Translations under genes and position numbers: made by a program
DNA from: a virus
Virus record (IMG/VR): IMGVR_UViG_3300000116_000049
Span: 17,357-41,513 of that record
Reading direction: 5' to 3' (one strand)
Length of the DNA stretch: 24,157 nt
Shown: positions 6,491-23,717 of the stretch, one piece after another
Layout of the letters: each line of letters begins with the position of its first letter
Numbering within the stretch: the stretch's first letter is position 1
The notes under the pieces: model-generated
Seen by the model: the letters and a program-made list of their open reading frames with translations, nothing else
Told to the model about the DNA's origin: nothing
Database searches by the model: none

Positions 6491-6930
6491 CAGTTTGTAT
6501 AGCCCCCTCCAGCCTTTTTATAAGCAGAGGCTAACATTTGTGCTTTCCTTGCAGACCATTGTCCTGCACCGCCTCCTTTAGTTCCAGCCTTTATTCTGTT
6601 GAATATTCTTTTACGCATTGTTGGCTTAGTATAATTACCTGCGGCATTTACTCCTCCACTCTTATAGTAAGACATTCCACTTGGCGCAGATACATCTACT
6701 CTCATTCCTTTGTTGGCTTTCTTAGCGTGGTCTACTAATTTAAAGTCAGCCGTCCGGCTCGCCCCAGGGTGTGGTTTATAATCTCCCTTCATTAAGTAAT
6801 ACCTGCCACCTTCCAACATCCAATGATGTCCTTCTGGCGCGGGCACCTTTGCTTTCTTGCTAGAAATATTTAAGGTTCCTTTAGGTACTGAAGAAGATTC
6901 TTTTTTCCTGGTATATTTCTTGACGGCCAT
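6490..6930 (-). CDS. Basic phage protein with a shared C-terminal module
   Basis: 146 residues, pI clearly high. The N-terminal part has a small beta unit (GHHWMLEGGRYYLMKGDY). The C-terminal 50 residues (AAGNYTKPTMRKRIFNRIKA, then GGGAGQWSARKAQMLASAYK, then GGGYTN) form a module that recurs at the ends of phage proteins of unknown function, often next to DUF5872-like proteins as here. A nucleic-acid or virion-core role is likely from composition. The gene is preceded at four bases by a TAAATTTG box that overlaps the amidase stop codon, so it may have its own leaderless transcript. It is coupled to the next basic protein by ATGA. Confidence 0.65.
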   Translation of the reverse strand: MAVKKYTRKKESSSVPKGTLNISSKKAKVPAPEGHHWMLEGGRYYLMKGDYKPHPGASRTADFKLVDHAKKANKGMRVDVSAPSGMSYYKSGGVNAAGNYTKPTMRKRIFNRIKAGTKGGGAGQWSARKAQMLASAYKKAGGGYTN

Positions 6931-6934
6931 TCTA

Positions 6935-6942
6935 CAAATTTA
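6935..6942 (-). promoter_or_regulatory. -7 box TAAATTTG, four bases before a start codon
   Basis: The minus strand reads TAAATTTG-TAGA-ATG, a perfect TAnnTTTG with four bases before the ATG at 6930. Since the -7 box normally ends about five bases before the transcription start, the mRNA could begin at the A of ATG. The box overlaps the TAA stop of the amidase gene. No -33 TTG is visible at the usual spacing. Confidence 0.4.
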
Positions 6943-7362
6943 CAATAACCAGTCGTACTTTTTAGGTACCGAGAATGAAGGACAGGCTTTGGCTGCGAAT
7001 TCATTGTGGCCATTGATCCTAATCTTTCCATAATCTCTATACTTCTCCCTAATAGCGAGTATAAGGTTCACCATTGCAGTGTCCTGCTCTTCGGTCATGG
7101 TGTCTTTCGGCGTCTTGCCATCCGCCTCCACACCACCTATATAACATACACCAATACTTCCTTTATTTCTTCCTTTGCAGTGAGCACCCATTCTTTCTAC
7201 TGGACGGCCTTCATGTACTGATCCATCAAGATAAATAACATAGTGGTATCCGATATCACTCCATCCTCTTTTGATGTGCCACTCTCTAATAGTCTCTACT
7301 GATACATCCTGCCCTTCTCTAGTTGCAGAGCAATGCAATATAATACTGTCGATTTTTCTCAT
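6940..7362 (-). CDS. T7-lysozyme-type N-acetylmuramoyl-L-alanine amidase (endolysin)
   Basis: 140 residues, an Amidase_2/PGRP zinc hydrolase that cuts the amide bond between muramic acid and L-alanine in peptidoglycan. Residues line up with T7 lysozyme: zinc ligands His10 (IILHCSA), His119 and Cys127 (GHNEFAAKACPSF), with Tyr39 and Lys125 as the catalytic pair. The spacings (10 to 39, 119 to 127) equal those of T7 (17 to 46, 122 to 130). There is no signal peptide, so it needs a holin or other route across the inner membrane. It is not in the holin/spanin cassette (22742-23705) but shares with the holin-like gene the same TAnnTTTG-N4-ATG start. T7 lysozyme also inhibits T7 RNA polymerase; no T7-type polymerase is in this window. 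Confidence 0.9.
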   Translation of the reverse strand: MRKIDSIILHCSATREGQDVSVETIREWHIKRGWSDIGYHYVIYLDGSVHEGRPVERMGAHCKGRNKGSIGVCYIGGVEADGKTPKDTMTEEQDTAMVNLILAIREKYRDYGKIRINGHNEFAAKACPSFSVPKKYDWLL

Positions 7363-7366
7363 AAGA

Positions 7367-7374
7367 CAAATGTA
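7367..7374 (-). promoter_or_regulatory. -7 box TACATTTG, four bases before the amidase start
   Basis: The minus strand reads TACATTTG-TCTT-ATG, a perfect TAnnTTTG match placed exactly as at 6935-6942 and 23710-23717. A related plus-strand string, TATCTTAG at 7377-7384, lies next to it, five bases before the HNH gene, so this 30-base gap may hold two divergent start sites. Confidence 0.45.
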
Positions 7375-7389
7375 TATATCTTAGTCTTA

Positions 7390-7719
7390 ATGATTACGAG
7401 AGAGAAATATCTTCAGAAGAAAAAATGGAGAAATAAAAAGTTAAAAGAATTCTACGCATACAAGAAAACACTATCGTGTGAAATATGTGGTGAGTCTCAT
7501 TACAGATGCTTAGAGTTTCACCATATAGATCCTTCTAGTAAAATAGCCCATATTGCTAACTTAGCAAAATCAGCATCTACGACTACGCTAATGAATGAGA
7601 TTAAAAAGTGTAAGGTCTTATGTGCCAACTGCCATAGAAAAGAACACGATGTTATTGGGAACTTAGGTCATAAGATTAGCCGTCAAGGGCCACCCACCAA
7701 TCAGATGTCTTTGTTCTAA
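7390..7719 (+). CDS. HNH endonuclease
   Basis: 109 residues from MITREKY. Zinc-binding CxxC pairs are Cys30/Cys33 (SCEICGESHYR) and Cys78/Cys81 (VLCANCHRKEH). Between them sits the ββα-metal core with His44-His45-Ile-Asp47 (LEFHHIDPSSK), the HNH catalytic stretch. This is a free-standing HNH nuclease, of the kind that spreads as a homing endonuclease or works in packaging. I prefer this start because an ATG at 7333 would overlap the divergent amidase gene by 30 bases, whereas this one has its own -7-like box. It is a lone plus-strand gene at the junction of late and early regions, as expected for a mobile endonuclease. Confidence 0.8.
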   Translation: MITREKYLQKKKWRNKKLKEFYAYKKTLSCEICGESHYRCLEFHHIDPSSKIAHIANLAKSASTTTLMNEIKKCKVLCANCHRKEHDVIGNLGHKISRQGPPTNQMSLF

Positions 7720-7733
7720 TAGGTGTTGTAACA

Positions 7734-7756
7734 AGTATTGCATACTAACTTTTTTT
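7734..7756 (+). terminator. Weak intrinsic terminator after the HNH gene
   Basis: AGTAT-TGC-ATACT forms a five-base-pair stem (7734-7746), followed by AAC and seven T residues (7750-7756). The stem is AT-rich, so it is weak, but it lies 15 bases after the HNH stop codon on the right strand. Confidence 0.45.
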
Positions 7757-7785
7757 ACTGTACCTTCGCTTTGATCTTCATTGAT

Positions 7786-7801
7786 TCATTCATCTGAATG
7801 A
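7786..7801. repeat. Perfect inverted repeat TCATTCA-TC-TGAATGA
   Basis: Seven-base arms with a two-base centre. It is compact enough to be a dimeric repressor site rather than an RNA hairpin. It lies just before a second dyad at 7805-7828. Confidence 0.5.
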
Positions 7802-7804
7802 CGA

Positions 7805-7828
7805 GGGGTCGCGTAAGCAAATGACCCC
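7805..7828. repeat. Inverted repeat GGGGTC / GACCCC
   Basis: GGGGTC (7805-7810) and GACCCC (7823-7828) are perfect six-base arms around a 12-base loop. There is no T-run after the 3' arm on either strand, so it is not a simple terminator. It could be an RNA hairpin or an operator. Confidence 0.45.
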
Positions 7829-7913
7829 GTAAGATAGATCGATCCACTAAACTTGTCGGAATATCCATATCCGGAAAACGACGCAGCAGGAACATTAGAA
7901 TACGCGCTAAAAC

Positions 7914-7930
7914 TGTATATACAATATACA
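7914..7930. repeat. Perfect inverted repeat TGTATAT-ACA-ATATACA
   Basis: Seven-base arms with a three-base centre, 17 bases in total, the size of a typical operator for a small helix-turn-helix repressor. No phage repressor gene is seen beside it; the nearest small winged-helix gene is at 3200. Confidence 0.5.
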
Positions 7931-7942
7931 CATGTTTGAACA

Positions 7943-7970
7943 CGCTTCAAGCGCAAAGCGCTTCCGCTTG
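7943..7970. repeat. Clustered CGCTT/AAGCG inverted and direct repeats
   Basis: CGCTT-C-AAGCG (7943-7953) and AAGCGC-AAA-GCGCTT (7949-7963) overlap, and a further CGCTTG ends at 7970 and can pair with CAAGCG at 7948-7953. Within 28 bases the element CGCTT or its complement occurs four times, so alternative hairpins are possible, as in iteron or operator clusters. Confidence 0.5.
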
Positions 7971-8329
7971 GACCACTTGCTGTTACGGCTTATTCTCTAC
8001 ACACAACATAACTACATTTCGAGCACAACACTCTCCACTAACGTCTCTCGCAAAATAATATGAGATATGTTTACCCTGGGGATTATATAATATAATATCC
8101 TTAATTTATTTTCTCCTAAACTCTTTTTTCTTGCCCACCCCCCTCGAATATCTTTTATACTTTACAAAACTTTTGTCGTTTCTCAGGTCCAACCATACAA
8201 GACAAAAACAAATATTACCACCGGATCAATTATTAAACTATAATAAACTTGTATCGTTTTATAATAGTAAAGCAAATCATTCATCCAGGCTAACCATTCA
8301 ACCAAAACCTTTAGGCCTTCCCTTAAATT

Positions 8330-8355
8330 GTGCAAGTCCTACGGAAGTACTGCAC
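8330..8355. repeat. Hairpin GTGCA(A)GT / AC-TGCAC
   Basis: GTGCA at 8330-8334 and TGCAC at 8351-8355 pair, and the stem can extend inward by GT/AC past a single bulged A. The loop is about 11 bases. There is no T-run. It lies in the G-poor stretch upstream of the early promoter. Confidence 0.35.
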
Positions 8356-8493
8356 AAACAACACCCCACATTTGAGAACATATATATTTAACCTTAAAAG
8401 ATAACACACTAGCCCCGCCATACAAATAGTATTCCTTTGATATGCTCGAAAAGTAGGTCCAACTATCAAGCGTTAAACCGGACCACTAAAAAC

Positions 8494-8530
8494 ATTTGTG
8501 TAATTAGTTAAATATATTTGTGTAATTGGT
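8494..8530 (+). repeat. Tandem direct repeat in the early promoter
   Basis: ATTTGTGTAATTAGT (8494-8508) and ATTTGTGTAATTGGT (8516-8530) differ at one base and start 22 bases apart, about two helical turns, so a protein would meet both copies on the same face of DNA. The second copy overlaps the proposed -33 box. Confidence 0.65.
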
Positions 8531-8548
8531 AAAAGTTTTGTATCATTG
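8517..8548 (+). promoter_or_regulatory. Probable early promoter, Bacteroidota -33/-7 type
   Basis: TTTG at 8517-8520, then 20 bases, then TATCATTG at 8541-8548. This fits the Bacteroidota consensus TTTG-N19/20-TAnnTTTG except for one base. The -7 is part of TTGTATCATTG, close to the strings at 20527-20537 and, on the minus strand, 3189-3179. A perfect TATATTTG at 8513-8520 overlaps the -33. Transcription would start near 8553 and enter the early operon. Confidence 0.6.
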
Positions 8549-8597
8549 TTATGTCGATGGGGTTACCCTCGGCATTCTAACCAAAACGAAAATCAAC

Positions 8598-8822
8598 ATG
8601 GAACACAATACAATGAAGGTATACATCAAGAATGTATATGGCAAGCAAATGATTTACCCACTTTGCCGAAAAGCGCAAATCCTGTGCGCAAATACCGGCC
8701 GATCAACATTCGGCGAATTTTATCTAAACGCATCAAATGACATGAATGATCAACTGCCATGGATTAATCAAATTGGCTTTGATGTTGTTCTAGGTCATGA
8801 ATTTGAAAAAGATACATTATGA
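8598..8822 (+). CDS. Small early protein of a family common in Bacteroidota mobile elements
   Basis: 74 residues from MEHNTMKVY; a second ATG at 8613 would give 69. The opening MKVYIKNVYGKQMIYPLCRKAQI resembles a family of 50-70 residue proteins common in phages and plasmids, in which 'KNVYGxxxIYPxxxxA' is followed by an 'F...TG..TF' turn and a final 'IxxxGFxVV' strand; NQIGFDVVLG fits the end. The function of the family is unknown to me. It is the first gene after the proposed early promoter, and its stop overlaps the next start as ATGA. An upstream TTG at 8526 is unlikely because it lies inside the promoter. Confidence 0.7.
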   Translation: MEHNTMKVYIKNVYGKQMIYPLCRKAQILCANTGRSTFGEFYLNASNDMNDQLPWINQIGFDVVLGHEFEKDTL

Positions 8823-9217
8823 ACATTTACGATATCAAACGCGCAACCAAAGAAACCGCGCCTTATTACTTCAGCAAAAAAACCTTGGCCCACTTTGGGC
8901 AAACGATGAAGGACTTTACGGTTCGCAAATTAGAAAGCGGAATGTACGTTGTCGAGGCCCCTTCATACGATCGAGAGGGCAAATTTATGGGGTATAGTTT
9001 ACGGATATTTGATCCGGCAACTAATGAGTTAATATTCCCGGATAAAGTAAAATGGTATTCGGGCGGAAAGGTCGCACCGGTTAAAAAATCGCTCGATAAG
9101 CAAAGGAGTGCAATACAATTACTCGAAATGAATACCGAGCATGCATTGCGATTGATTCCGTTTAAGGCCCAAATTAAACTCATTAAGGAAATAAGAAAGG
9201 ATTTGGAATCTGAATGA
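8819..9217 (+). CDS. Early protein, DUF7447-like, function unknown
   Basis: 132 residues. It opens with MNIYDIKRATKETAPYYFSK, then THFGQTM-like AHFGQTMKDFTVRKLES, a strand pair GMYVVEAPSYD and GYSLRIFDPATNEL. Small phage proteins with 'YYFxxxTLxFFGQTMxxF' are widespread in phages and prophages, with no known activity. The C-terminal third is helical and basic (KQRSAIQLLEMN, IKLIKEIRKDLES), possibly an added segment. Arginine is mainly encoded by CGN here, unlike the AGA/AGG use further right. The start is fixed by the ATGA overlap with the previous gene. Confidence 0.7.
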   Translation: MNIYDIKRATKETAPYYFSKKTLAHFGQTMKDFTVRKLESGMYVVEAPSYDREGKFMGYSLRIFDPATNELIFPDKVKWYSGGKVAPVKKSLDKQRSAIQLLEMNTEHALRLIPFKAQIKLIKEIRKDLESE

Positions 9218-9231
9218 AACCCTAAACCCCT

Positions 9232-9266
9232 CCACTAGTCCGCCATAAAACGCGGGCTTTTGGTGG
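9232..9266 (+). ncRNA. Structured intergenic element A (terminator-like, related to element B)
   Basis: An inner stem GTCCGC / GCGGGC (9238-9243 with 9252-9257, one T-G pair) closes the loop CATAAAAC, followed by TTTT. An outer stem CCACT / GGTGG (9232-9236 with 9262-9266) can form around it. The order stem, ATAAAAC loop, stem, TTTTGG, GGT-CAA is shared with the element at 10578-10628, although the stem bases differ. It could be a terminator between early genes or a conserved RNA motif. Confidence 0.5.
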
Positions 9267-9302
9267 TACAAACCATTAATAAACTTTAAATAATCTCTAG
9301 CC

Positions 9303-9515
9303 ATGGAAATTCTAAAAACAAACGTAACAAAGATAGGAAACGATATATATTCCTATAAGACAAAGGTCGCAGTAATCGAGGGTAAAAATCTTCGCCTATT
9401 AGATTGGGAAATTGTCCGCAAATGGAACAACGAAACCCAAACCATAACTAAATCCCCCACTACTAGCCGGCACATAAAGTATGTCGCCGAAAAGTTAAAT
9501 CTTAATATAGTTTAG
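9303..9515 (+). CDS. Small early protein (DUF8033-like), function unknown
   Basis: 70 residues. The strand pairs YSYKTKVAVIEGKNLRLLDW and the C-terminal TTSRHIKYVAEKLNLNIV are like a small phage family in which 'Y-T-VA-I-' is followed by 'S-TTSRHIN-VA-ELGL-'. No activity is known to me. The AT-rich leader ends in AATCTCTAGCC before the ATG, nearly the same as the leader of the gene at 12340, so the two may share a start signal. It is the first gene after element A. Confidence 0.65.
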   Translation: MEILKTNVTKIGNDIYSYKTKVAVIEGKNLRLLDWEIVRKWNNETQTITKSPTTSRHIKYVAEKLNLNIV

Positions 9516-9517
9516 TT

Positions 9518-9715
9518 ATGAAATCAAATATTATATCTAGTCCAATAATTGGATACATTACAGATGTTAATTGGGACGAAAACCCATACTACGAAGTAAA
9601 GTATCTCAATAGTAAGGATCAAGTTACTTTTAAAAACTTCGACACAATGAAGGAGGTTCAAAAGCATTTATCCAAATTTAGAATTAACGGATCAACTCAA
9701 TATATTATATTATGA
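9518..9715 (+). CDS. Small early protein, function unknown
   Basis: 65 residues starting two bases after the previous stop and ending in an ATGA overlap with the glycosylase-like gene. The sequence is beta-rich (SPIIGYITDVNWDENPYYEV, TQYIIL) with one short helix (TMKEVQKHLSKF). It could be a small OB-like or ferredoxin-like fold, but that is guesswork. I do not recognise it. Confidence 0.55.
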   Translation: MKSNIISSPIIGYITDVNWDENPYYEVKYLNSKDQVTFKNFDTMKEVQKHLSKFRINGSTQYIIL

Positions 9716-10311
9716 AGTTATTTAATTTAACCCCATACCACCGGCGCAAGATCAAAACGAATCTTATGAATGCGTACAATATGCGTACGCCGGAAGATGT
9801 AAAGCAAGGCCTCGAATGGTATCCCCGCGCGCATGATATTTGCGCTGACATGGGCAAAGAATTGGATTTTAATTCTCAGTCTGTCGCCCACGCATTAAGT
9901 GCGCTCAGTCCACGCAATAAGTGGGAACGTAACATAATCGATGCGCGCAACGTATTGGAAGCCGTAAACGATGGAAAGGGGCCGGACGATGTGAAGGTAT
10001 GCACCTTCAATACTAATAAGGTAAAGGCCTTTGAAATAGCACGCGGGAATTTGACCATTGATAAGGTATCGCCAAAAACGTACTCATTTGTTAAGAATAT
10101 CGCTGAACTAGACGAAACAAGGGTAACCATTGATGTATGGCATTTACGCGCATCCTTTGGGAAGACAATTGAAAGCGGACTGACTCCATACCGGTATAAA
10201 GTTATTGAGGATATTACTTTAAAATGCGCTCGCGAAGTAGGTCGAAAGGGCTACGAATTTCAAGCGATCGTTTGGGGTATAGTTAGAAACAAATCAATTA
10301 ATAATAATTAA
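9712..10311 (+). CDS. HhH-GPD DNA-glycosylase-like phage protein
   Basis: 199 residues. The stretch with Lys122 (VSPKTYSFVKNI) and Asp141 (RVTIDVWHLRASFG) aligns by eye with endonuclease III, where the catalytic Lys120 and Asp138 sit in 'GRKTANVV' and 'VDTHIFRV'. The spacing is 19 here and 18 there. The N-terminal half is helical (SVAHALSALSPRNKWERNI) and the end reads FQAIVWGIVR. Phages carry an uncharacterised family with 'ALSPxxxWxxNI', 'PKxxxFxxNI' and 'VTIDVW' (DUF7178-like), and this belongs with it. A base-excision or DNA-binding role is inferred from fold only; the helix-hairpin-helix glycine motif is not obvious. It is coupled by ATGA to the previous gene. Confidence 0.6.
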   Translation: MKLFNLTPYHRRKIKTNLMNAYNMRTPEDVKQGLEWYPRAHDICADMGKELDFNSQSVAHALSALSPRNKWERNIIDARNVLEAVNDGKGPDDVKVCTFNTNKVKAFEIARGNLTIDKVSPKTYSFVKNIAELDETRVTIDVWHLRASFGKTIESGLTPYRYKVIEDITLKCAREVGRKGYEFQAIVWGIVRNKSINNN

Positions 10312-10314
10312 ATC

Positions 10315-10548
10315 ATGGGATATATATATTTTATTAAAGATTGGGCCGGCTATAGAAAATTCGCGCCGAAGACCTTCAAGACTACAGAAGATGCATCGGA
10401 TTTTCTTTTAACAAAAGTAAACGAAGATGAACTAGAGGAATTCGTTATTCATTCGATCATGATAACCCTGCCACCGGATGCAACACCACATGAGTTGAGC
10501 ATTTGGGAAAGTCAAACGAAGGTACGTTGTAATTTAATTACTGAGTAA
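10315..10548 (+). CDS. Small early protein, function unknown
   Basis: 77 residues, acidic. It begins with a strand (YIYFIKDWAGYRKFAPK) followed by a helix (TTEDASDFLLTKV), an acidic turn and a second strand (EFVIHSIMITLPP), and ends with a short amphipathic segment. No known motif. It follows the glycosylase-like gene by three bases and precedes structured element B, so it may be the last gene of the first early transcript. Confidence 0.55.
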   Translation: MGYIYFIKDWAGYRKFAPKTFKTTEDASDFLLTKVNEDELEEFVIHSIMITLPPDATPHELSIWESQTKVRCNLITE

Positions 10549-10577
10549 CCCTTAACAATATACTTTGGTTAGTTATC

Positions 10578-10628
10578 CATTGCCTCGGTCCTATAAAACG
10601 GTCCGGGGTTTTGGGGTGCAAGGCAATG
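10578..10628 (+). ncRNA. Structured intergenic element B (related to element A)
   Basis: A perfect eight-base outer stem CATTGCCT / AGGCAATG (10578-10585 with 10621-10628) encloses an inner imperfect stem. CCTCGGTCC can also pair with GGTCCGGGG around the loop TATAAAAC (10583-10608), followed by TTTTGGGG. The two stems compete for CCT at 10583-10585, so the RNA can switch between a terminator-like form and a longer form. The loop and the TTTTGG plus GGTGCAA tail match element A. Confidence 0.55.
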
Positions 10629-10652
10629 AAGTCTAGCATTAAATATATAACA

Positions 10653-10790
10653 ATGAATAAAAAATCAGAATTAAAACACGTACAAAGCCTATTAGATGAG
10701 GCATATGGAATAGTAATGAACATTACAGAAAATGATCATCCAATTTTACACAAAATAGATGAGGTCCAAAATAATATCGATGAATTATAA
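10653..10790 (+). CDS. 45-residue helical peptide
   Basis: A short frame with an AT-rich leader (ATATATAACA before ATG). The product, MNKKSELKHVQSLLDEAYGI followed by a second acidic helix (HKIDEVQNNIDEL), is a small helical hairpin with a heptad-like pattern. It begins the transcription unit after element B and ends ten bases before the next gene. Coding is likely because of the amino-acid pattern and tidy spacing, but it has no recognisable family. Confidence 0.55.
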   Translation: MNKKSELKHVQSLLDEAYGIVMNITENDHPILHKIDEVQNNIDEL

Positions 10791-10800
10791 ATTAAATAAA

Positions 10801-11013
10801 ATGGAATACAGGGCAACTATACAATGGAACGATAACTTAAACTATGAAGATGTTATTGTGACCACCAACAAAGAAACGGATGACGACGATTATATATTCT
10901 TTTATTTTAAAGACGAAGATGAAATAATTTCTTATAAGCAAAGGGGAATGCATGAGTTTAAAATCATTGACCATTATCCAATCGTAACAAATGTAAACTT
11001 TAATAAAGTATAA
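10801..11013 (+). CDS. Small acidic early protein, function unknown
   Basis: 70 residues from MEYRATIQW, chosen because the leader AATTAAATAAA resembles other starts here and because an earlier in-frame ATG (10759) lies inside the previous small gene. It has alternating strands (ATIQWNDNLNYEDVIVTT, DDYIFFYFKDED) and a YKQRGMHEFKIIDHYPI end. This is a compact beta protein with a DDDD turn. Acidic small early phage proteins often bind host enzymes, but there is no direct evidence here. Confidence 0.55.
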   Translation: MEYRATIQWNDNLNYEDVIVTTNKETDDDDYIFFYFKDEDEIISYKQRGMHEFKIIDHYPIVTNVNFNKV

Positions 11014-11015
11014 AC

Positions 11016-11375
11016 ATGGAGGAAGGTAATAAGTTGATAGCGGAATTTATGGGTGGTAAATTATCTCAAGATGGGTATAGAGTAGAATTTCCATTGTCAG
11101 ATAATGAGGCAAGAATATTTAATGTTGCGAATAGCCCCATAACATTTGATAAAGGGTTGACACAAATAAGTTATGTTGACGAGTTAAAATATCATTCCTC
11201 TTGGGATTCGCTGATGCCCATAGTACACAAGATTATAAAATCAAGAGATGATCAAAATGCTGATTGGGATTTATACGAAACAATCCACAACCTAAATTAT
11301 TCTTTGCAGACTACCAACATTGAATTAGTTTATCAAGCAGTAGTAGAATTTATTAATAGAAATTATGACAAGTAG
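11016..11375 (+). CDS. Phage ABA-sandwich-like protein, paralogue of the 12573 gene
   Basis: 119 residues. It starts NKLIAEFMGGK, followed by a variable beta region, then YHSSWDSLMPIVHKI (about residues 65-80), and ends with IELVYQAVVEFINRN. This order (IAEFMG, SWDxLMPVVxKI, VYxAVVEFI) is that of a small domain common in Bacteroidota phages and prophages, predicted as an alpha-beta-alpha sandwich of unknown function. The same three blocks recur at the C-terminal half of the protein at 12573-13175. The overlap of ten bases with the next gene suggests coupling. Confidence 0.65.
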   Translation: MEEGNKLIAEFMGGKLSQDGYRVEFPLSDNEARIFNVANSPITFDKGLTQISYVDELKYHSSWDSLMPIVHKIIKSRDDQNADWDLYETIHNLNYSLQTTNIELVYQAVVEFINRNYDK

Positions 11376-11727
11376 AGAAATTGAAATTATAGATGCGGTC
11401 GGTGAGTATGTCGACCGAAAGTTCGGGGATGATGCCTATGATGGCGAGAGTTATACCGAAGAGGTTCAAGATTACTTTAATGAACTACTAGATAGAGTAG
11501 AGGATGCGTATAGTGATGTTGATCTGTTGGCTTTCCCTTGTCCTAATTGTTCCTATGACGTAACATTTATAGACTCAGATGATGGGGACTTGGTCATGGC
11601 GGGACATGATTGTTCGAATGACGAAGATGTTGAGCCGTACACGCTGAGGTCTATTGAAGATCAAGCAAAAGAGATGTATCAAGATGAGATGGCAACACGT
11701 ACACTTAAAAATGCTTTAGGATTATGA
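11365..11727 (+). CDS. Acidic protein with a CxxC zinc-ribbon-like segment
   Basis: 120 residues, strongly acidic. An N-terminal helix (SREIEIIDAVGEYVDRKFGD) is followed by an acidic helix with EVQDYFNELLDRVEDAY. Then comes AFPCPNCSYDVTFI, which with HDC (residues about 84-86) could supply three or four zinc ligands, as in half of a zinc ribbon. One more ligand is missing or is a His. Such proteins can be DNA mimics or small adaptors, but I can support only the composition and the cysteine pair. Its TGA overlaps the next ATG. Confidence 0.55.
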   Translation: MTSREIEIIDAVGEYVDRKFGDDAYDGESYTEEVQDYFNELLDRVEDAYSDVDLLAFPCPNCSYDVTFIDSDDGDLVMAGHDCSNDEDVEPYTLRSIEDQAKEMYQDEMATRTLKNALGL

Positions 11728-15921: not shown

Positions 15922-16463
15922 TGCAGAGATTTACTTTGGAAAGTATTTATTTTGGCGGATCGGAACCCGATGTTAAGAGGATCTTGAGGTACTGCCCAAA
16001 GAATACAATTAGAAAAACGTGCGACTACCTTTGCATACAAGAACACAAACTTTTGAGTCCATGCAGAGAAAGAAATCTCGTTGACGCAAGATCAATGCTG
16101 ACTGCATTGTTTCGTTATCATAGCAAAACTAGACTTCCCTATATCAAGATCGGTAAGATGATGAACCGGGATCACGCAACGGCAATCAATGCCTTGAAGA
16201 GGCACGCCAACATGACGACACTAAACAAAAAAGGAAAGGCAATGCATCCCGACTACGTCAATACATACAACACATTGCGTAACGACCTATGCTATCTGTA
16301 CGATCCAAAGGCAAAGAAGAAAATAATTTATGGAAGGGAATTAAGATTAGCAATCCAACCTTCAGCGGTAGCCTATTCTGAGTGGCAGTTAATTATGAAA
16401 ATGGAATTTGACATCGTTCAATTGAAAAACTTAATAGATCAACACCCACTACTTGATGCTTGA
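15921..16463 (+). CDS. DnaA domain IV-like DNA-binding protein
   Basis: 180 residues. NLVDARSMLTALFRYHSKT (about residues 52-70), LPYIKIGKMMNRDHATAINA (72-91) and LKRHANM match the C-terminal DNA-binding domain of DnaA, where 'AR..M.L.R..T..S...IG..FGRDHTT' includes the helix-turn-helix that reads DnaA boxes. The AAA+ ATPase domain is absent, so this is not a full initiator. It may mark the phage origin or compete with host DnaA. It is followed by the primase-helicase with an eight-base overlap. The remaining residues (LEDxx-like NLIDQHPLLDA at the end) have no known motif. Confidence 0.72.
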   Translation: MQRFTLESIYFGGSEPDVKRILRYCPKNTIRKTCDYLCIQEHKLLSPCRERNLVDARSMLTALFRYHSKTRLPYIKIGKMMNRDHATAINALKRHANMTTLNKKGKAMHPDYVNTYNTLRNDLCYLYDPKAKKKIIYGRELRLAIQPSAVAYSEWQLIMKMEFDIVQLKNLIDQHPLLDA

Positions 16464-18246
16464 AGAAAAGATTACAATGTATAAGTCCGTTGTAGACACT
16501 ACGAAACCTGTGGTGGTTTCTCTGAGCACGGCTTTAGAAAGAATTAAGAACGGCAAAAGTGAGTCTACTGTTACTGAAATCAGAGGTGGGGATAAGTCCA
16601 AAAAAAAAGATCTACCTATAGCCTTGTTCTCCGGGGTTTTTAAAGGAAGGAAAGACCAAGACCTAAATGTTCATAGTGGACTTATTGTACTAGACTTTGA
16701 TCATATTAATGTACAAGAATCGAAGTCACTACTAGGGACAGATGACTATGTCCTTGCTTGTTGGGCAAGTCCTTCGGGCGATGGACTAAAAGCATTAGTC
16801 AAGGTCAGCAACCCCGATAAACATCGTGATCATTTTCGATCACTACAATCTTACTTTGAAACACAATATGGATTAGAGGTTGATCCATCCGGAGTTAATG
16901 AGGCAAGGGCGTGTTACGAAAGTCATGATCCGGACTTGGTAATTAATACTACGGCTCAACCTTTTGGAATGATGCTCTCTGAGAAATCATTGGACCAATC
17001 AGCGGAACTAAAAGACGAAAGAACCTATACCGATTACAATAAGTTAAACATCATATGCTCTATGATAAGGGGCGCATCAGATGGAGAGAAGCACCTTATG
17101 TTATGTAAGGCGGCAGTCTTGGCCGGGGGTTACATTGCCGCGGGTCGAATGGAAGAGGCTGAAGCCGTAAGAGTCATTGAGCGTGAGTTAGGTTATAAAG
17201 GGGTTGAAGATGAGGCGCACGCAAGAAGAACGCTTTTAGATGGGATTGAACAAGGGAAGAGGCAACCAATAAGAGAAACACTTCAAGAGGAGGCCGCCGC
17301 AATAAGAGAAATGCAGATCAACAATGGGGATATGTCTTTCATTGCATCAGATACTGAGGATTATAAATGGATAGAGGGTTACTATCGAGGAGAGATAGAG
17401 ATGGGATTAACTACGGGTTGTTCTCAATTAGACAAATACTTTTTATTCAAGAAAGAGTTTGTTGTTATAGTAGGCCACTCTAATATTGGAAAGACTACAA
17501 TGGCATTAAGTCTTTTAATGGCAAGTGCCATTCATCATAAGTGGAAGTGGATCGTTTATTCTTCAGAGAATAAAACCGGCGCAGTGAAGATGAGGTTAAT
17601 GGAGTTCTGCATGAACAAACCTTTATACAGAATGAACGGCGAAGAAAGATTGTTCGCTTTCAACTTTGTAAAGAATCATTTCGTATTAATAAACAATCAC
17701 GAGACATACGGCTATACAGATATGCTAGTTTTTGCAGAAAAGTTAATGAGGCAGGAGCAGTATCAAGGACTGTTAATAGATCCATACAATAGTTTAAAAC
17801 TGCAAATGGGAAACAGTGGACTCAACTCTCATGAGTATCATTACGAAGCGGCATCAGAGTTATTAACAATGTCAAACAAGAACGAAATGGCGGTATGGCT
17901 TAACACTCATTCAGTTACATCGGCACAAAGAGAGAAGGGTGAAGACGGTTTGTCATCGGCCCCATTAGGCTCTCAAAGTGAAGGGGGTTCGAAATTTAGT
18001 AATCGTGCAGACTCAATGCTTGTATGGCATCGCAAGGTTCAAGCAGATGACGAAGACTTACGCAGAATTACTGAGTTCCATGTAGTTAAGCAGAGAAATA
18101 AAGAAACAGGAGGAGAGCCTACCCCTAGGAGTTCACCGGTTCTTTTTCAAATCAATAGAAGCATGACAGGGTTCTCTACTTTCATCTCTGGTTCAAAACT
18201 ATTTGATCCTTTAACACTAGAAGATCGTCAGAAATACTTATTTTAA
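16456..18246 (+). CDS. BT4734/VirE-type primase fused to DnaB-like helicase
   Basis: 596 residues; the ATG at 16456 is preferred over the TTG just before it. Residues 55-165 form the N-terminal domain typical of Bacteroidota proteins (LNVHSGLIVLDFDHI, ACWASPSGDGLKALVKV, NEARACYESHDPDL), where DFD and SPSGDG are the recognised signatures. A helical linker follows. Residues 315-560 form the RecA-like helicase core: Walker A GHSNIGKTT (341-349), Walker B LLIDPYNSL (440-448), and the sensor-like WLNTHSVTSAQR. It should synthesise primers and unwind the fork. The primase catalytic metal site is inferred by family only. Confidence 0.82.
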   Translation: MLEEKITMYKSVVDTTKPVVVSLSTALERIKNGKSESTVTEIRGGDKSKKKDLPIALFSGVFKGRKDQDLNVHSGLIVLDFDHINVQESKSLLGTDDYVLACWASPSGDGLKALVKVSNPDKHRDHFRSLQSYFETQYGLEVDPSGVNEARACYESHDPDLVINTTAQPFGMMLSEKSLDQSAELKDERTYTDYNKLNIICSMIRGASDGEKHLMLCKAAVLAGGYIAAGRMEEAEAVRVIERELGYKGVEDEAHARRTLLDGIEQGKRQPIRETLQEEAAAIREMQINNGDMSFIASDTEDYKWIEGYYRGEIEMGLTTGCSQLDKYFLFKKEFVVIVGHSNIGKTTMALSLLMASAIHHKWKWIVYSSENKTGAVKMRLMEFCMNKPLYRMNGEERLFAFNFVKNHFVLINNHETYGYTDMLVFAEKLMRQEQYQGLLIDPYNSLKLQMGNSGLNSHEYHYEAASELLTMSNKNEMAVWLNTHSVTSAQREKGEDGLSSAPLGSQSEGGSKFSNRADSMLVWHRKVQADDEDLRRITEFHVVKQRNKETGGEPTPRSSPVLFQINRSMTGFSTFISGSKLFDPLTLEDRQKYLF

Positions 18247-18250
18247 TGGT

Positions 18251-18628: not shown

Positions 18629-18833
18629 GCAATACTTTAATTGCACGCACCGAATACATAATGCTGCTACGGCTTTATATGAAGCCTTGCATTCAGAAGG
18701 AGGAGAGCCAAAAAGAAACACTGATGCTCTTCACAATACTATAAGAAAATATAAGCGTGAAACGGACGGAGAGTTTGACCAAATAAGATCACTAATAAAT
18801 GAGTTCAAAGACAATCATACTGATATTTCTTGA
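18606..18833 (+). CDS. Small helical protein, function unknown
   Basis: 75 residues, almost all helical and charged, starting MDSKELSKQYFNCTHRIHNA with a middle GEPKRNTDALHNTIRKY. It overlaps the RusA gene by 23 bases and the following glycosyltransferase gene by 35, so it is part of the same operon. No motif is visible. The composition suits a small DNA- or protein-binding helical bundle. Confidence 0.55.
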   Translation: MDSKELSKQYFNCTHRIHNAATALYEALHSEGGEPKRNTDALHNTIRKYKRETDGEFDQIRSLINEFKDNHTDIS

Positions 18834-19791
18834 TGGCTTAAACGGCATCAACTATCACAGACTTATGACACCGTTTGTTAGGCTCCGATCAAAAGAGGGG
18901 GTTAACATACATTTCTTTCAATCCTACAACGAGATAAAAAAGTTTGACCTTACCAAGGTTAAAGCCGTCGTTACCTCTAGGAGGTGTACTGTTACGGATC
19001 ACAAAGCGTTTAAGGACTACCTAGTAAAGAACGATGTCAAGTTAATCCTAGACAATGATGACTATTGGAAGTTGCCTAAGAGTAATGATGCCTATAAGTA
19101 TTATAGAAAGACAGCGGGGCCAGACATACTTAAATCTATAAAGATCGCTGATGAAATTTGGACACCTTCAGAATACCTGGGGGAAAGAATGAGAAAGATT
19201 AATCCTAATGTACCCATTAGGTTAGTTCCTAATACTGTAAACGAAAAGGAGGAGCAATGGCGAGAGTATGAGAAGGATCCTACTGATGTGGTTAGGTTTG
19301 GGTATCTAGGAGCCAATGGACATATGGATGACATCAAGTCAATGGGAATAACTTTTGAAGACCATGAACTTTATTGTACTCACCTCGGTGGAAGAGTAGC
19401 GAGCGAGGGTCACTATGATCAGTATCTAAAAGCAAAGCATAGGTTAATCCCTAAAGACATACATCAATACGCATCCTTCTATAAAAAGTTTGATGTTTCT
19501 CTGGCGCCCCTTTTGGGAGGGGCTTTTAATAAGTCCAAGTCAAACCTTAAAGTAATAGAGGCGGCCTTCACAAGGACGGCTATCATAGCATCCAATGTAA
19601 CACCGTATCAGGAATGTATAAAACATAACAAGACTGGAATCCTATGTAACAACGGAGATGATTGGAGAAAAGCCGTCAAAGAAATGACTCTGGAAAGGGC
19701 TAGAGAACTAGGGGAAGCCTTATATGAGGACATGAAGGAAAAATATAGCCTAGATAGAATCAATAAAGAAAGACTTAAAGGATTGATCTAA
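18799..19791 (+). CDS. GT-B-like glycosyltransferase
   Basis: 330 residues. The N-terminal Rossmann half starts ILIFLDGLNGINYHRLMTPF and includes KLILDNDDYWKLP. ADEIWTPSEYLGERM and PIRLVPNTV are the usual joining segments. The C-terminal donor half has VSLAPLLGGAFNKSKSNLK and VIEAAFTRTAIIASNVTPYQ, the GT4/GT1-type nucleotide-sugar site with its EA pair. The order and spacing are those of family 4-like glycosyltransferases. It is unusual to find such a gene inside the replication operon, so DNA or a replication-time substrate is possible, but no DNA-base hydroxymethylase is seen in this window. It starts within the previous gene. Confidence 0.68.
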   Translation: MSSKTIILIFLDGLNGINYHRLMTPFVRLRSKEGVNIHFFQSYNEIKKFDLTKVKAVVTSRRCTVTDHKAFKDYLVKNDVKLILDNDDYWKLPKSNDAYKYYRKTAGPDILKSIKIADEIWTPSEYLGERMRKINPNVPIRLVPNTVNEKEEQWREYEKDPTDVVRFGYLGANGHMDDIKSMGITFEDHELYCTHLGGRVASEGHYDQYLKAKHRLIPKDIHQYASFYKKFDVSLAPLLGGAFNKSKSNLKVIEAAFTRTAIIASNVTPYQECIKHNKTGILCNNGDDWRKAVKEMTLERARELGEALYEDMKEKYSLDRINKERLKGLI

Positions 19792-20309
19792 TGAACTATC
19801 AACCGATACCATCCTATCTAAAAGAGTATGCTGATGCGCTTACTCTTCTAAGAGTGGAGATAAATCGGAAGAGATATAAAGGCACACATAAACAAAGAAC
19901 AGGAACAAAGAACTCAAAGTTGTTAGGGGAAGTTGAAAGAGAATATTACACCGAGTATTTAGGGATACTGGGTGAACTCTTGGTCCGAAATTATTATGAA
20001 ACCAATCCAGAGTTCTCATCATACAAGGCATCCACTTTTATTAAGGGAGCAAGAAGCGTTAAAGACGATAGTGATCTTATCGTTGTGAAGAATGGAGTAA
20101 GTAATAAAATAAGCATTAAGACTTGCGAGTATTCTTTTAAAGCAAACTGTAGAGCAATGGATAAAGAGACGTCAGACATCGTTGTGTTTCTTTTATTTAT
20201 ATCGCCAGATGAGTATGTTGTTTCCAACTACACTCCGAACCAAGTTAAGAACTGGGAAGTCAGACACGGCTACTCACCATACTATGAACTACACCCAACT
20301 AAAAAATGA
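19791..20309 (+). CDS. PD-(D/E)XK nuclease-like protein
   Basis: 172 residues. After a basic N-terminal helix, YLGILGELLVRNYYE (about residues 56-70) carries Glu62, and KDDSDLIVVKNGVSNKISIK (91-110) carries Asp95 and Lys110. Together they form the E, D and xxK pattern of PD-(D/E)XK nucleases, of the small restriction-like kind. The remaining strands (SDIVVFLLFIS, EYVVSNYTP) fit the fold. It lacks a recognised DNA-binding domain, so the target is not known. It lies directly after the glycosyltransferase, starting at its last base, and overlaps the next gene by ATGA. Confidence 0.6.
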   Translation: MNYQPIPSYLKEYADALTLLRVEINRKRYKGTHKQRTGTKNSKLLGEVEREYYTEYLGILGELLVRNYYETNPEFSSYKASTFIKGARSVKDDSDLIVVKNGVSNKISIKTCEYSFKANCRAMDKETSDIVVFLLFISPDEYVVSNYTPNQVKNWEVRHGYSPYYELHPTKK

Positions 20310-20515
20310 TAAAGTTTAAACACAAGGAAACTGGAGAAACGATAACTGTTTCCCAGGTCAGAACCTATATCAATAGCGATGGGTCAAAAAGAAACGTAGA
20401 TCTCACGAACAAATATGACCTCGATGAATATGACGAAGTAAAAGAAAAGACTGACTATAAGTCTATTCATTGCACTCAAGCACCTAACGATAAAAAAAAT
20501 TGGAGCCTGAGATAA
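20306..20515 (+). CDS. Small early/middle protein, function unknown
   Basis: 69 residues, charged and mostly beta at the N-terminus (IKFKHKETGETITVSQVRTY). Then comes DGSKRNVDLTNKYDLDEYDE and a Lys/Asn-rich end. It starts in the ATGA overlap with the PD-(D/E)XK gene and is the last gene before the terminator at 20541. No family recognised. Confidence 0.55.
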   Translation: MIKFKHKETGETITVSQVRTYINSDGSKRNVDLTNKYDLDEYDEVKEKTDYKSIHCTQAPNDKKNWSLR

Positions 20516-20526
20516 TTAAGATAATT

Positions 20527-20537
20527 TTGTATCTTCG
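20527..20537 (+). promoter_or_regulatory. Possible promoter -7 box before the reductase gene
   Basis: TTGTATCTTCG contains a seven-of-eight match to TAnnTTTG-type boxes and nearly equals the early promoter string TTGTATCATTG at 8538-8548. A -33 TTG is not found at the normal spacing. Transcription from here would pass through the terminator hairpin at 20541, so attenuation is conceivable. Confidence 0.35.
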
Positions 20538-20540
20538 ATC

Positions 20541-20563
20541 AGCCCCAGAGATGGGGCTTTTTT
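20541..20563 (+). terminator. Intrinsic terminator between the operon and the reductase gene
   Basis: AGCCCC (20541-20546) pairs with GGGGCT (20553-20558) across the loop AGAGAT, followed directly by a run of T residues (20558-20563). It lies between the stop at 20515 and the ATG at 20585. It should end most transcripts from the replication operon before the reductase gene. Confidence 0.8.
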
Positions 20564-20584
20564 AACCTTAAAAACTTTTAAAAT

Positions 20585-22489
20585 ATGACACCAATTACTT
20601 ATCGGCCTGAGGACATTCCTTGGGGTGAAGTGGGATACGTGACTTACAAACGTACCTATGCCAGACCTACAACAAAAGGACAGACAGAAGAGTGGGAAGA
20701 CACAGTAGATAGAATAATGCAGGCGGCAAATAAGCAATTGGATTGTGGATTTAATGAACAAGAAGTAGAAGAATTTAAGGGGTACATGATGAACCTTAAA
20801 GGAACGGTAGCAGGACGGTTCTTATGGCAGTTAGGTACCAAGACAGTGGACACATTAGGTCTGCCATCATTGCAGAATTGTGCGTTCACAGTTATCGATG
20901 AGCCAATACGGCCTTTCACTTGGGCATTTGAAATGCTCATGCTAGGCTCTGGTGTCGGGTATAACATTCAAAGAGAGCACGTATATCAATTGCCTAAGGT
21001 TAAAAAGAAAGTTAAGGTCACACGATCAGATGTAAACGATGCAGACTTCATTGTACCTGACAGCAGAGAAGGATGGGTCGAGTTACTAAAGCGGACGCTA
21101 GAGGCGTCCTTTGTCACAGGAGAATCATTCACCTATGCTACTCACTTAATACGCGCTAAGGGTTCTTTAATTAAGGGATTCGGTGGTGTTGCTTCAGGGG
21201 CAGAAGACCTAGCAAAAGGAATGACCTTGATCAATGAAGTATTGAATACTCGTTCAGGAAAAAGACTACGATCTGTGGATGCATTAGATGTAATGAATAT
21301 CATAGGTATGGTTGTTGTTTCTGGTAACGTAAGGCGATCTGCTCAGATTGCTATCGGTGATCATGATGACTTAGAATATTTAAGAGCAAAGCGTTGGGAT
21401 CTTGGAAACATACCCAACTGGAGAGCCATGAGTAATAACTCAGTAGCCTGTGACGATACCGACTCATTACCTGAAGAGTTCTGGGAAGGATACAAAGGAA
21501 ATGGTGAGCCGTATGGTCTTATCAATCTCGCTACAGCCAGGAAGATGGGAAGAACAGGAGAGCATCAATACCCTGACCCAGATGTGATGGGCTTTAATCC
21601 ATGCGCTGAACAATCATTGGCCGACAAAGAGACTTGTTGTTTGTCAGAGATCTACCTACCCAACATAGAGAACGAAGAAGAATTGAAGAAGGTTGCTACA
21701 TACCTATACAGGATATCAAAGCACAGTCTATCTATTAAGTGTTCATTAAAAGAAACAGAAGCCATCGTACATAAGAATATGAGGATGGGAATTGGAGTGA
21801 CGGGGTATCTTCAGGCTAGTGACGAACAAAGGTCATGGCTATCTGATACATATCTATACTTGCGTAAGTATGACCAGGAGTATTCTGATATCAAAGGATG
21901 GAATAGATCCATTAAGTTAACGACGGTTAAGCCGTCGGGGACATTGTCTTTGCTTGCGGGAGTTACTCCAGGAGCACACCCAGGATACAGTACGTTCTTT
22001 ATACGTCGTATAAGGATGGCTAGTAATTCACCTTTGATTGATGTTGCTCGCGGCAACGGCTTCGATGTAGAGTACGTTCAAAACTTTGACGGAACCGAAG
22101 ACCACCAGACTATGGTTGTTTCATTTCCTTGCAGGTTCCCATCAAGAACTATGGTAGCCAGTGACCTCAGCGCGGTTGATCAGTTAGGAGTTATACAAAG
22201 ACTCCAAAGAGAGTGGAGCGATAACGCTGTGTCTGTAACCATTTACTATAGGCTAGAAGAATTAGAAGGTATCAAGGATTGGTTAAGTGTTAATTACATT
22301 AACGTAAAGACTGTATCGTTTTTATTACACAACGATCACGGCTTTGCCCAGGCCCCCTTCGAAGAGATAGACGAGGCAACATACCTAGACATGAAGTCAA
22401 AGACAACACCTATCGTAAGCATTGGTCAATTGAATATGGAAGATATTGAACTAGCAGATTGTGATACAGGAGCATGTCCAGTAAGGTAG
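20585..22489 (+). CDS. nrdJ: Class II (adenosylcobalamin-dependent) monomeric ribonucleotide reductase
   Basis: 634 residues. The enzyme reduces ribonucleoside triphosphates to deoxy forms, raising dNTP for phage DNA synthesis. Residues match Lactobacillus leichmannii RTPR (739 residues): Cys99 in LQNCAF for Cys119, NPCAEQ with Asn338, Cys340 and Glu342 for Asn406, Cys408 and Glu410, Cys351 for Cys419, and the C-terminal CDTGACPVR (Cys626, Cys631) for the shuttle pair Cys731 and Cys736. The spacing of each pair is the same. SGNVRRSAQIAIGD and TLSLLAGVTPGAHPG are further family segments. It is about 105 residues shorter than the reference, mostly within loops or the cobalamin-region. It depends on host B12 or uptake; no B12 gene is in the window. 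Confidence 0.92.
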   Translation: MTPITYRPEDIPWGEVGYVTYKRTYARPTTKGQTEEWEDTVDRIMQAANKQLDCGFNEQEVEEFKGYMMNLKGTVAGRFLWQLGTKTVDTLGLPSLQNCAFTVIDEPIRPFTWAFEMLMLGSGVGYNIQREHVYQLPKVKKKVKVTRSDVNDADFIVPDSREGWVELLKRTLEASFVTGESFTYATHLIRAKGSLIKGFGGVASGAEDLAKGMTLINEVLNTRSGKRLRSVDALDVMNIIGMVVVSGNVRRSAQIAIGDHDDLEYLRAKRWDLGNIPNWRAMSNNSVACDDTDSLPEEFWEGYKGNGEPYGLINLATARKMGRTGEHQYPDPDVMGFNPCAEQSLADKETCCLSEIYLPNIENEEELKKVATYLYRISKHSLSIKCSLKETEAIVHKNMRMGIGVTGYLQASDEQRSWLSDTYLYLRKYDQEYSDIKGWNRSIKLTTVKPSGTLSLLAGVTPGAHPGYSTFFIRRIRMASNSPLIDVARGNGFDVEYVQNFDGTEDHQTMVVSFPCRFPSRTMVASDLSAVDQLGVIQRLQREWSDNAVSVTIYYRLEELEGIKDWLSVNYINVKTVSFLLHNDHGFAQAPFEEIDEATYLDMKSKTTPIVSIGQLNMEDIELADCDTGACPVR

Positions 22490-22716
22490 AGTTAGAAGAA
22501 CTGATCAATAATGATCCGTTATCTCAGCGCATTGTAGACCTAAAGGTTGGTGAGAAGTTACCAATTAAAGACCCTAAGGCCATACAAAAGATTAAGGAAG
22601 TCAATGAGTCCATGCTCATTGGCTATGCCTTAGATGTAAACCAGGAGAATATGACTATAGAAAAGATTCGTCCAACTGCTGCTGAAACTTTGCTTAGGTT
22701 CTATGGACTGGATTGA
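22474..22716 (+). CDS. Small protein coupled to the reductase, function unknown
   Basis: 80 residues, overlapping the reductase end by 16 bases. It opens SSKVELEELINNDPLSQRIV, then DLKVGEKLPIKDPKAIQKIK, a NESMLIGYALDVNQENMTIE strand-helix-strand part, and a short helix at the end. It may be a small partner protein or thioredoxin-linked helper, but it lacks a CxxC pair, so a redox role is not supported. No family recognised. Confidence 0.6.
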   Translation: MSSKVELEELINNDPLSQRIVDLKVGEKLPIKDPKAIQKIKEVNESMLIGYALDVNQENMTIEKIRPTAAETLLRFYGLD

Positions 22717-22819
22717 AGAACTATATTACAAGAGAATGTGGTTAACTGAATCTGAAGATTCTTCTAAGACCTTCAGCACCGAGACCAAAGAGCAAGAGGA
22801 AGAACGACCACTTATATAA
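22703..22819 (+). CDS. Possible 38-residue peptide overlapping an antisense gene
   Basis: The frame starts within the end of the previous gene (22703) and reads MDWIEELYYKRMWLTESEDS and then a Glu-rich tail. The last 26 codons are antisense to the 3' end of the minus-strand spanin-like gene (78-base overlap). That gene codes for a Leu/Phe-rich membrane helix there, whose antisense naturally reads as Glu and Lys, so the tail may be only a shadow. The opening residues are outside the overlap and look plausible. Confidence 0.35.
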   Translation: MDWIEELYYKRMWLTESEDSSKTFSTETKEQEEERPLI

Positions 22820-23182
22820 TTTGTGATACCATTTTTCTCTTTCGTGGTACACTATTTTTTCTATAGGAACTTCAACCGTCCTCACTATGGTATCGGACTC
22901 ACAACCTCCATCGATTATAAGGGTGTCGTAACTCCGCATAATCTTTACTCGGAAGTTGTTCTTTACGATCTCTATTGTATCTACTTTTGAGATGGTGACC
23001 GTATCCAATACAGCAGTCGGGTTTGTCACAACCGTGTCCAAGACAACTACGGTATCCTGAACTAGAATTGTTGGGTCTTTTTTGATCGCTCTCTGGAGAT
23101 GCCATTGTGTACTACAGCCTGTTGTTAAACATATCAACAACAAAGTTAAGAAAAGTATTACACTTAGTACAGAACATTTCAT
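22742..23182 (-). CDS. Candidate unimolecular spanin (lipoprotein with C-terminal membrane helix)
   Basis: 146 residues. The N-terminus is a lipoprotein signal peptide: MKCSVLSVILFLTLLLICLT, then TGC with the modified Cys23. The middle is beta-rich and full of Asp-Thr-Val strands (VVVLDTVVTNPTAVLDTVTI). The end has a membrane helix (YKWSFFLLLFGLGAEGL) and a basic tail. One protein with an outer-membrane lipid anchor and an inner-membrane helix is the layout of the u-spanin of phage T1 (gp11), which fuses the two membranes in the last step of lysis. The place after the holin-like gene agrees. The lipobox -3 residue is Thr rather than Leu. Confidence 0.68.
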   Translation of the reverse strand: MKCSVLSVILFLTLLLICLTTGCSTQWHLQRAIKKDPTILVQDTVVVLDTVVTNPTAVLDTVTISKVDTIEIVKNNFRVKIMRSYDTLIIDGGCESDTIVRTVEVPIEKIVYHEREKWYHKLYKWSFFLLLFGLGAEGLRRIFRFS

Positions 23183-23484
23183 TTCCTGGACAAATTGTAT
23201 AATCTTTCGTCAATTTTTTTAAGGCTAGAGTTTATATTTTCAATATCGGCTTTTGTCTCCAGGATAGCGTTATCAATTATCTCTGTCTGGAGCCGGAACA
23301 TCTCAGCAGAAACAGGTGCTTCGGGTAATAACTTAGCCTGCTCGATATCTTGTTTTATCATAGTATAACCAGAGGCCGCTACCGCTACAGTCATTCCTAT
23401 CGCAACAAGAGACTTAATACTAATTCCCATTACTCTATCTTCTCCAAACGAATCTAACATATCTATAGGTGATTTTTTTCTCAT
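23179..23484 (-). CDS. One-TM coiled-coil protein of the lysis cassette
   Basis: 101 residues from MRKKSPIDML, chosen because its ATG overlaps the stop of the holin-like gene as ATGA. Its own stop overlaps the spanin-like ATG. It has one hydrophobic segment (SIKSLVAIGMTVAVAASGYT) near residue 30, followed by a Gln/Lys/Ile-rich coiled coil (RLQTEIIDNAILETKADIEN, SSLKKIDERLYNL). A tail-anchor or i-spanin-like layout (N-terminal helix and periplasmic coiled coil) or an anti-holin is possible; no named family is recognised. Confidence 0.62.
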   Translation of the reverse strand: MRKKSPIDMLDSFGEDRVMGISIKSLVAIGMTVAVAASGYTMIKQDIEQAKLLPEAPVSAEMFRLQTEIIDNAILETKADIENINSSLKKIDERLYNLSRK

Positions 23485-23705
23485 TTTTTCTGTGAGAATT
23501 TTTCTAATCCAGAGATGCCAAAGCACCCCAATGTAATAAATAGGAAACTGTTATAGATGAACTCATTAACTACTAAGTCCTTCCCACACCATCCTGTTAT
23601 GATGTCAATTAACATTACCAAAATCATAATGGCAAATGAAATAAATCCGACTACGGACTTTTCATTGATGTCATTATCGTCTTTAAAAATATCTGTGAAT
23701 CCCAT
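23481..23705 (-). CDS. Two-TM holin-like protein
   Basis: 74 residues from MGFTDIFKDDND; a GTG at 23723 would add six residues but covers the -7 box. Two membrane helices are visible: KSVVGFISFAIMILVMLIDI (about residues 16-35) and FIYNSFLFITLGCFGISGLE (about 48-67), with a short link GWCGKDLVVNE. Two helices with a charged N-terminus fit a class II holin, which opens the inner membrane to let the amidase reach the wall. I recall similar proteins in flavobacterial phages. It begins the three-gene lysis cassette linked by ATGA overlaps. Confidence 0.68.
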   Translation of the reverse strand: MGFTDIFKDDNDINEKSVVGFISFAIMILVMLIDIITGWCGKDLVVNEFIYNSFLFITLGCFGISGLEKFSQKK

Positions 23706-23709
23706 ACTA

Positions 23710-23717
23710 CAAAGGTA
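23710..23717 (-). promoter_or_regulatory. -7 box TACCTTTG, four bases before the holin-like start
   Basis: The minus strand reads TACCTTTG-TAGT-ATG, perfect TAnnTTTG with the same four-base gap as before the amidase and the 6930 gene. A TTG is found 15 bases upstream, which is shorter than the usual 17-20. Transcription could begin at the ATG itself. Confidence 0.45.

Follow-up and report, generated by a model that had tools for sequence, protein, structure and literature searches.

Leaderless mRNAs are already known both in Bacteroidota and in phages. The repressor gene cI of phage lambda, which is under sigma-70 control, is transcribed from PRM as a leaderless mRNA. Among Bacteroidota, leaderless transcripts make up 5.5% of the mapped mRNAs of Flavobacterium psychrophilum (PMC9723704), and about 3.7% of the 5' untranslated regions of Bacteroides thetaiotaomicron are shorter than 10 nucleotides (nt). 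The -7 element of their sigma-ABfr promoters, TAnnTTTG, has been refined in Flavobacterium johnsoniae to TAHHTTTG, where mapped transcription start sites (TSSs) follow the box at a distance of 4 or 5 nt (PMC6847099); in F. psychrophilum the box occupies positions -12 to -5 (PMC9723704). In Bacteroidota ribosomes, the anti-Shine-Dalgarno tail of the 16S rRNA is sequestered, and translation therefore does not depend on Shine-Dalgarno pairing (PMC9976891). Here we describe three TAnnTTTG boxes on the minus strand of a 24,157-nt stretch of viral DNA (the window), the right part of the 41,513-base-pair contig (G000) of IMG/VR record IMGVR_UViG_3300000116_000049, each lying exactly four bases before the ATG of a late gene. 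We put the probability at about 0.85 that these boxes are ordinary host sigma-ABfr -7 elements, used as late promoters at a fixed spacing and giving leaderless mRNAs.

Results

The three sites, at 23717-23703, 7374-7360 and 6942-6928, are present on the minus strand as a sequence-only reading of the window had placed them, and they are the only three matches of the pattern TANNTTTGNNNNATG in the window, where shuffles give a mean of 0.58. The whole contig holds four matches, all on the minus strand, and none of a reversed control pattern; the earlier statement that no equal case precedes the plus-strand genes is correct. The fourth site (G000:13221-13207, minus strand) precedes the gene that follows the portal gene. 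With k denoting the number of nt between box and ATG, and gene starts called as the leftmost ATG, k=4 occurs at four of the contig's 58 called starts against about 0.025 expected (P ~2e-8, or ~7e-7 after correction for 41 possible spacings). The minus strand carries the late genes (terminase, portal, amidase and others in PHROGs and Pfam scans), and the plus strand the early and replication genes, among them a primase/helicase, a ribonucleotide reductase and a DnaA-C-like gene. Among isolates, portal and terminase have their relatives in podovirus-like phages that infect Cellulophaga, Flavobacterium, Maribacter or Tenacibaculum, which makes a host within Flavobacteriia almost certain and a marine one probable.

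Across a clade of 136 related loci (1.49 megabases (Mb); 920 non-redundant leftmost-ATG starts), the distance from box to ATG is sharply two-peaked: one start lies at k=3, 43 lie at k=4, 10 at k=5, three at k=6, two at k=7 and none at k=8-10, and a broad hump of leadered promoters is found at 15-27 nt. The background is about 0.5 per k position, and about 0.4 starts were expected at k=4, so that the excess over chance, which the sequence-only reading had proposed to look for in the genome and in related phages, is clear in both. Reversed boxes, scrambled boxes and in-frame internal ATGs at the clade loci gave no k=4 peak. The excess has P ~1e-70 if starts are taken as independent and ~1e-20 if one is counted per family, the 43 starts belonging to 16 unrelated gene families, on which ground redundancy was rejected as the source of the peak. 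An artefact of start calling, in which the TAA of a box would share the reading frame of an ATG at k=4, was likewise rejected, because boxes beginning TA[CT] (TA[CT]H), which cannot be stop codons, peak equally (23 at k=4, 8 at k=5) and because k=1, 7 and 10 are not raised. In fifteen isolate Bacteroidota phages, the counts at k=3, 4 and 5 are 0, 10 and 4.

Taken with the published TSS position 4-5 nt past the box, the N4 spacing would put +1 on the A of the ATG, and a 5'-AUG mRNA is predicted. The boxes might instead be promoters whose transcripts keep a leader of 1-3 nt or begin one or two bases into the open reading frame (ORF), as the two published distances and the ten clade starts at k=5 would allow; yet the peak at k=4 is four times as high as that at k=5, and at the leadered promoters, too, offset +12 is most often an A, so that we consider such near-leaderless transcripts unlikely.

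In their composition, the k=4 boxes fit the ordinary host consensus TAHHTTTG. None of the 43 clade boxes has a G at either of the two free positions (0/86), and the same octamer inside genes carries G there in 26/224 and 94/224 cases. The AT content at -9..-2 before the box is 0.78 for k=4 boxes, 0.79 for leadered boxes and 0.58 for in-gene octamers, and the box is directly followed by C/T and then A in both promoter classes. By these features, the k=4 boxes look like genuine sigma-ABfr -7 elements. A leadered late promoter of the window serves for comparison: its box TATCTTTG (3186-3179, minus strand; span 3164..3186) lies 15 nt before the ATG at 3163, and some 25 relatives keep it, at distances of 15-24 nt or a little over.

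The absence of a good -33 box at the three sites, from which the sequence-only reading had raised the possibility of a phage-altered polymerase or an unusual late promoter, is real, and it is equally true of the clade's leadered promoters, as -33 TTTG has no enriched position in either the k=4 or the leadered class of clade promoters. A phage-modified polymerase, or a phage factor replacing the -33 contact at a special class of late promoters, would account for this absence and for the near confinement of boxes near starts to the late strand: on eight clade contigs, k=4 starts make up 15 of 162 on the late strand against 0 of 135 on the other (P ~9e-5), and leadered boxes 21/162 against 2/135. 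However, Flavobacterium promoters as a whole show hardly any trace of the -33 element (PMC6847099), and we therefore did not treat it as required for membership of the sigma-ABfr class. The leaderless and leadered late boxes also share the host consensus, and the same geometry is found in host chromosomes. Scans with Pfam or PHROGs of proteins of the phage and a few relatives revealed no phage-encoded RNA polymerase or sigma factor, many small early proteins being unmatched. We rejected a special -33-less class, as leadered late promoters also lack the element, and regard an altered polymerase as very unlikely and as unnecessary, since neither the leadered promoters here nor Flavobacterium promoters generally have a clear -33 box.

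The host comparison rests on 80 Bacteroidota chromosomal loci around rpoD and on whole-genome pattern counts in 20 Flavobacteriia genomes. At the chromosomal loci, the counts for k=3 to k=7 are 3, 7, 3, 7 and 4, with no sharp peak, alongside about 130 leadered boxes. As a share of boxes at k=4 or k=13-35, k=4 accounts for 43/153 in the clade versus 7/137 at the chromosomal loci, a roughly 7-fold higher ratio of k=4 to leadered boxes (odds ratio 7.3, P ~1e-7); for the fifteen isolate phages the ratio is about 3-fold higher (P 0.03). The Flavobacteriia genomes have an excess of N4 over N8 of about 6.6 per Mb, positive in 20/20, and the figure for the clade records is about 32 per Mb, by a control that differs from that of the host genomes. 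Judged by these counts, the k=4 geometry is present in host chromosomes too, at low frequency, in agreement with the proportion of leaderless mRNAs in F. psychrophilum.

Several k=4 boxes stand next to transcription terminators. At L042:12663, L042:6586, L069:5528 and L035:1919, a hairpin with a T-run ends about 0-10 nt from the box (folding z-scores -2.6 to -4.1), and a similar hairpin/T-run-like sequence precedes the box in isolate phage 11b. Terminators occur before 5/43 k=4 boxes versus 10/713 starts without a box (P ~0.001). Where a terminator hairpin abuts the box, upstream transcripts should end there, which leaves the box as almost the only place where the downstream mRNA could start.

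Other boxes overlap the upstream gene: in ten of 13 gene pairs with a 9-nt gap, the box opens with the TAA of the upstream stop codon, as between amidase and basic protein in the window and between portal and its successor. Such stop codons, in frame with the next ATG, and the fixed distance between box and ATG would suit an element acting in translation, either as a start signal or in stop-to-start reinitiation on a polycistronic mRNA. However, most of the remaining k=4 boxes do not double as stop codons, an identical 8-mer flanked in the same way lies 15-27 nt upstream of other genes, and the AT-rich patch before it equals that of leadered promoters. The boxes directly after terminator hairpins led us to reject an element acting in translation only, and a translational role in place of a promoter seems highly improbable.

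The k=4 spacing also survives divergence between orthologues. For the gene after the portal gene, TANNTTTG-N4-ATG is found in 43/91 readable relatives with 17 different sequences of box plus N4, and the spacing is kept at protein identities down to below 40%; relatives (PHROG 1084 family) without a k=4 box have no box within 60 nt and are never leadered. The amidase box TACATTTG (7374-7367, minus strand), followed by TCTT (span 7363..7374), has its predicted +1 at the A of the ATG at 7362, and no further perfect box lies on the minus strand from 7374 to 8987, upstream of the amidase. The gene, at 6940..7362, encodes an N-acetylmuramoyl-L-alanine amidase (endolysin), an identity confirmed by its match to PHROG 822 (4.9e-56). 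TACATTTG-N4-ATG is retained in L129, L301 and L302, though their upstream sequence differs from that of the window, and the k=4 box overlapping the amidase stop is also found in these three loci. In the window, this latter box, TAAATTTG (6942-6935, minus strand), is followed by TAGA (span 6931..6942), with its TAA doubling as the amidase stop codon and a predicted +1 at the A of the ATG at 6930. Behind it, at 6490..6930, lies the gene for a 146-aa (amino acid) basic protein of unknown function with a C-terminal PHROG 17747 domain (3.9e-30); a search with phrog_17747 returned mostly loci with few such boxes, probably from non-Bacteroidota phages, and was little used.

The third box, TACCTTTG (23717-23710, minus strand), followed by TAGT (span 23706..23717), has its predicted +1 at the A of the ATG at 23705 and precedes the gene for a 74-aa small membrane protein (23481..23705), upstream of spanin-like genes. 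This protein had been called holin-like, a label that rests on hydrophobicity only and finds no convincing match in PHROGs or Pfam. Its orthologue in L359 (61% identity) has k=4 as well, its box and N4 being different (TATTTTTG-TACA), and that in L279 (76%) is leadered, with k=21. The ATGs themselves are likely true starts, as the N-termini of orthologues align from residue 1, and annotated coding-sequence starts agree with the k=4 ATG at three isolate sites (L227:9188, L228:43907 and L228:48880). Isolates with annotated k=4 starts include Flavobacterium phage elemoE, Maribacter phage Panino and phage 11b. Chance, by which -7-like octamers common in AT-rich DNA would happen to fall four bases before three ATGs, has some footing in the window alone, where 4/100 shuffles reach three matches, but is refuted at the level of the clade, with its observed excess, its 16 gene families and the conserved spacing, and can be neglected.

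Other features of the phage were noted in passing. On the plus strand, an ORF resembling an HNH endonuclease (7333-7719, weak match to Pfam PF01844) overlaps the amidase start, and between it and the early operon about 0.8 kilobases (7720-8500) hold no clear genes and have no Rfam match; the window as a whole has no matches to Rfam families or tRNAs. Just after the post-portal gene, the late strand encodes a 1742-aa collagen-like protein rich in GxK/GPP repeats (G000:7579-12807, L005). The gene upstream of the terminase (1020-1658) matches PHROG 13932, labelled 'co-chaperonin GroES'. In elemoE and Panino the label recurs in the corresponding position, and in phi38:1 it is found close to the late region; it looks doubtful, because phi38:1 and elemoE have separately annotated chaperonin Cpn10/GroES genes. 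The terminase translation (L005, within 15997-17598) contains one X, from an ambiguous base in the contig. The early region encodes a phage ribonucleotide reductase (20585-22489, PHROG 367) with a cysteine-containing C-terminal tail, DCDTGACPVR. Both strands carry glycosyltransferase-, methyltransferase- and oxygenase-like ORFs (L005:3443-4683, 4680-6971 and 6968-7516; window 3628-4347 and 18799-19791), a set not usually seen in a small podovirus; Pfam was applied to the two window genes and gave weak glycosyltransferase matches.

Discussion

The part of the sequence-only reading that stands is the prediction of leaderless transcripts, which the clade peak, the spacing kept in divergent orthologues, the abutting terminators and the published TSS spacing strongly support; the altered polymerase or unusual late promoter is not supported. 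In the mechanism that we propose, host sigma-ABfr -7 elements would serve this phage family as embedded late promoters at a fixed spacing, and RNA polymerase would initiate 4-5 nt past the box, on the A of the ATG, producing a leaderless transcript. Bacteroidota ribosomes would translate it without a 5' leader, Shine-Dalgarno pairing being unused anyway. A complete promoter could in this way fit into as little as an upstream stop codon plus 9 nt, and compaction may be the reason for the arrangement. That leaderless late mRNAs form a regulatory class, the phage shifting host translation to 5'-AUG mRNAs so that late proteins are made selectively and leadered host mRNAs are not translated, we hold to be decidedly unlikely.

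Several points weigh against leaderless late transcription from these boxes. The actual 5' end is a prediction from sequence, and it is likewise presumed that Bacteroidota ribosomes translate leaderless mRNAs during infection. The clade starts are predicted ones, taken as the leftmost ATG, and a single family supplies 19 of the 43 k=4 genes. The box is absent from many relatives of these genes, which must use upstream promoters, and is therefore not essential.

A hint from three sites has become a signature of promoters and start codons, with solid statistics, for a whole family of phages of marine Bacteroidota. From it, the exact starts of transcripts can be predicted in phage genomes that lack annotation, and start codons can be fixed. 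The system also offers a simple test of how Bacteroidota ribosomes, with their sequestered anti-Shine-Dalgarno tail (PMC9976891), handle leaderless mRNAs. A stop codon that doubles as part of a promoter is economical and permits independent transcription of tightly packed genes. The enrichment of leaderless mRNAs in the late genes of these phages appears to be undescribed: the open literature searched held no conserved late-strand leaderless promoter class in Bacteroidota phages, including the stop-codon-sharing form, and the open papers yielded no relevant account of leaderless transcripts for phages of Bacteroides or Flavobacterium.

As in lambda cI, a phage gene here would have an mRNA beginning at AUG, but multiple structural and lysis genes are concerned, with a Bacteroidota promoter. 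The leaderless TA-like -10 signals of Actinobacteria and Deinococcus (PMC3160421) similarly lie at a fixed short distance before the start codon, with a different sigma consensus; the sigma-70-like reference used in that survey might overlook TAnnTTTG, and Bacteroidetes signals remained 'atypical' there. With the sigma-ABfr promoter, the phage boxes share the octamer, the lack of G at the free positions, the upstream AT-rich patch and a TSS expected 4-5 nt downstream (PMC6847099, PMC9723704). However, the sigma-ABfr promoter, with its -7 TAnnTTTG or TAHHTTTG and optional -33 TTTG, usually lies 15-30 nt before the ATG, whereas the phage boxes are fixed at 4 nt, sometimes overlap the upstream stop codon and show no -33 TTTG. 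The leaderless mRNAs of Bacteroidota themselves have the same promoter-to-AUG geometry, and Flavobacteriia chromosomes also show the N4-over-N8 excess; the phage sites differ from these in their density per Mb, in a far sharper peak and in their confinement to the late strand.

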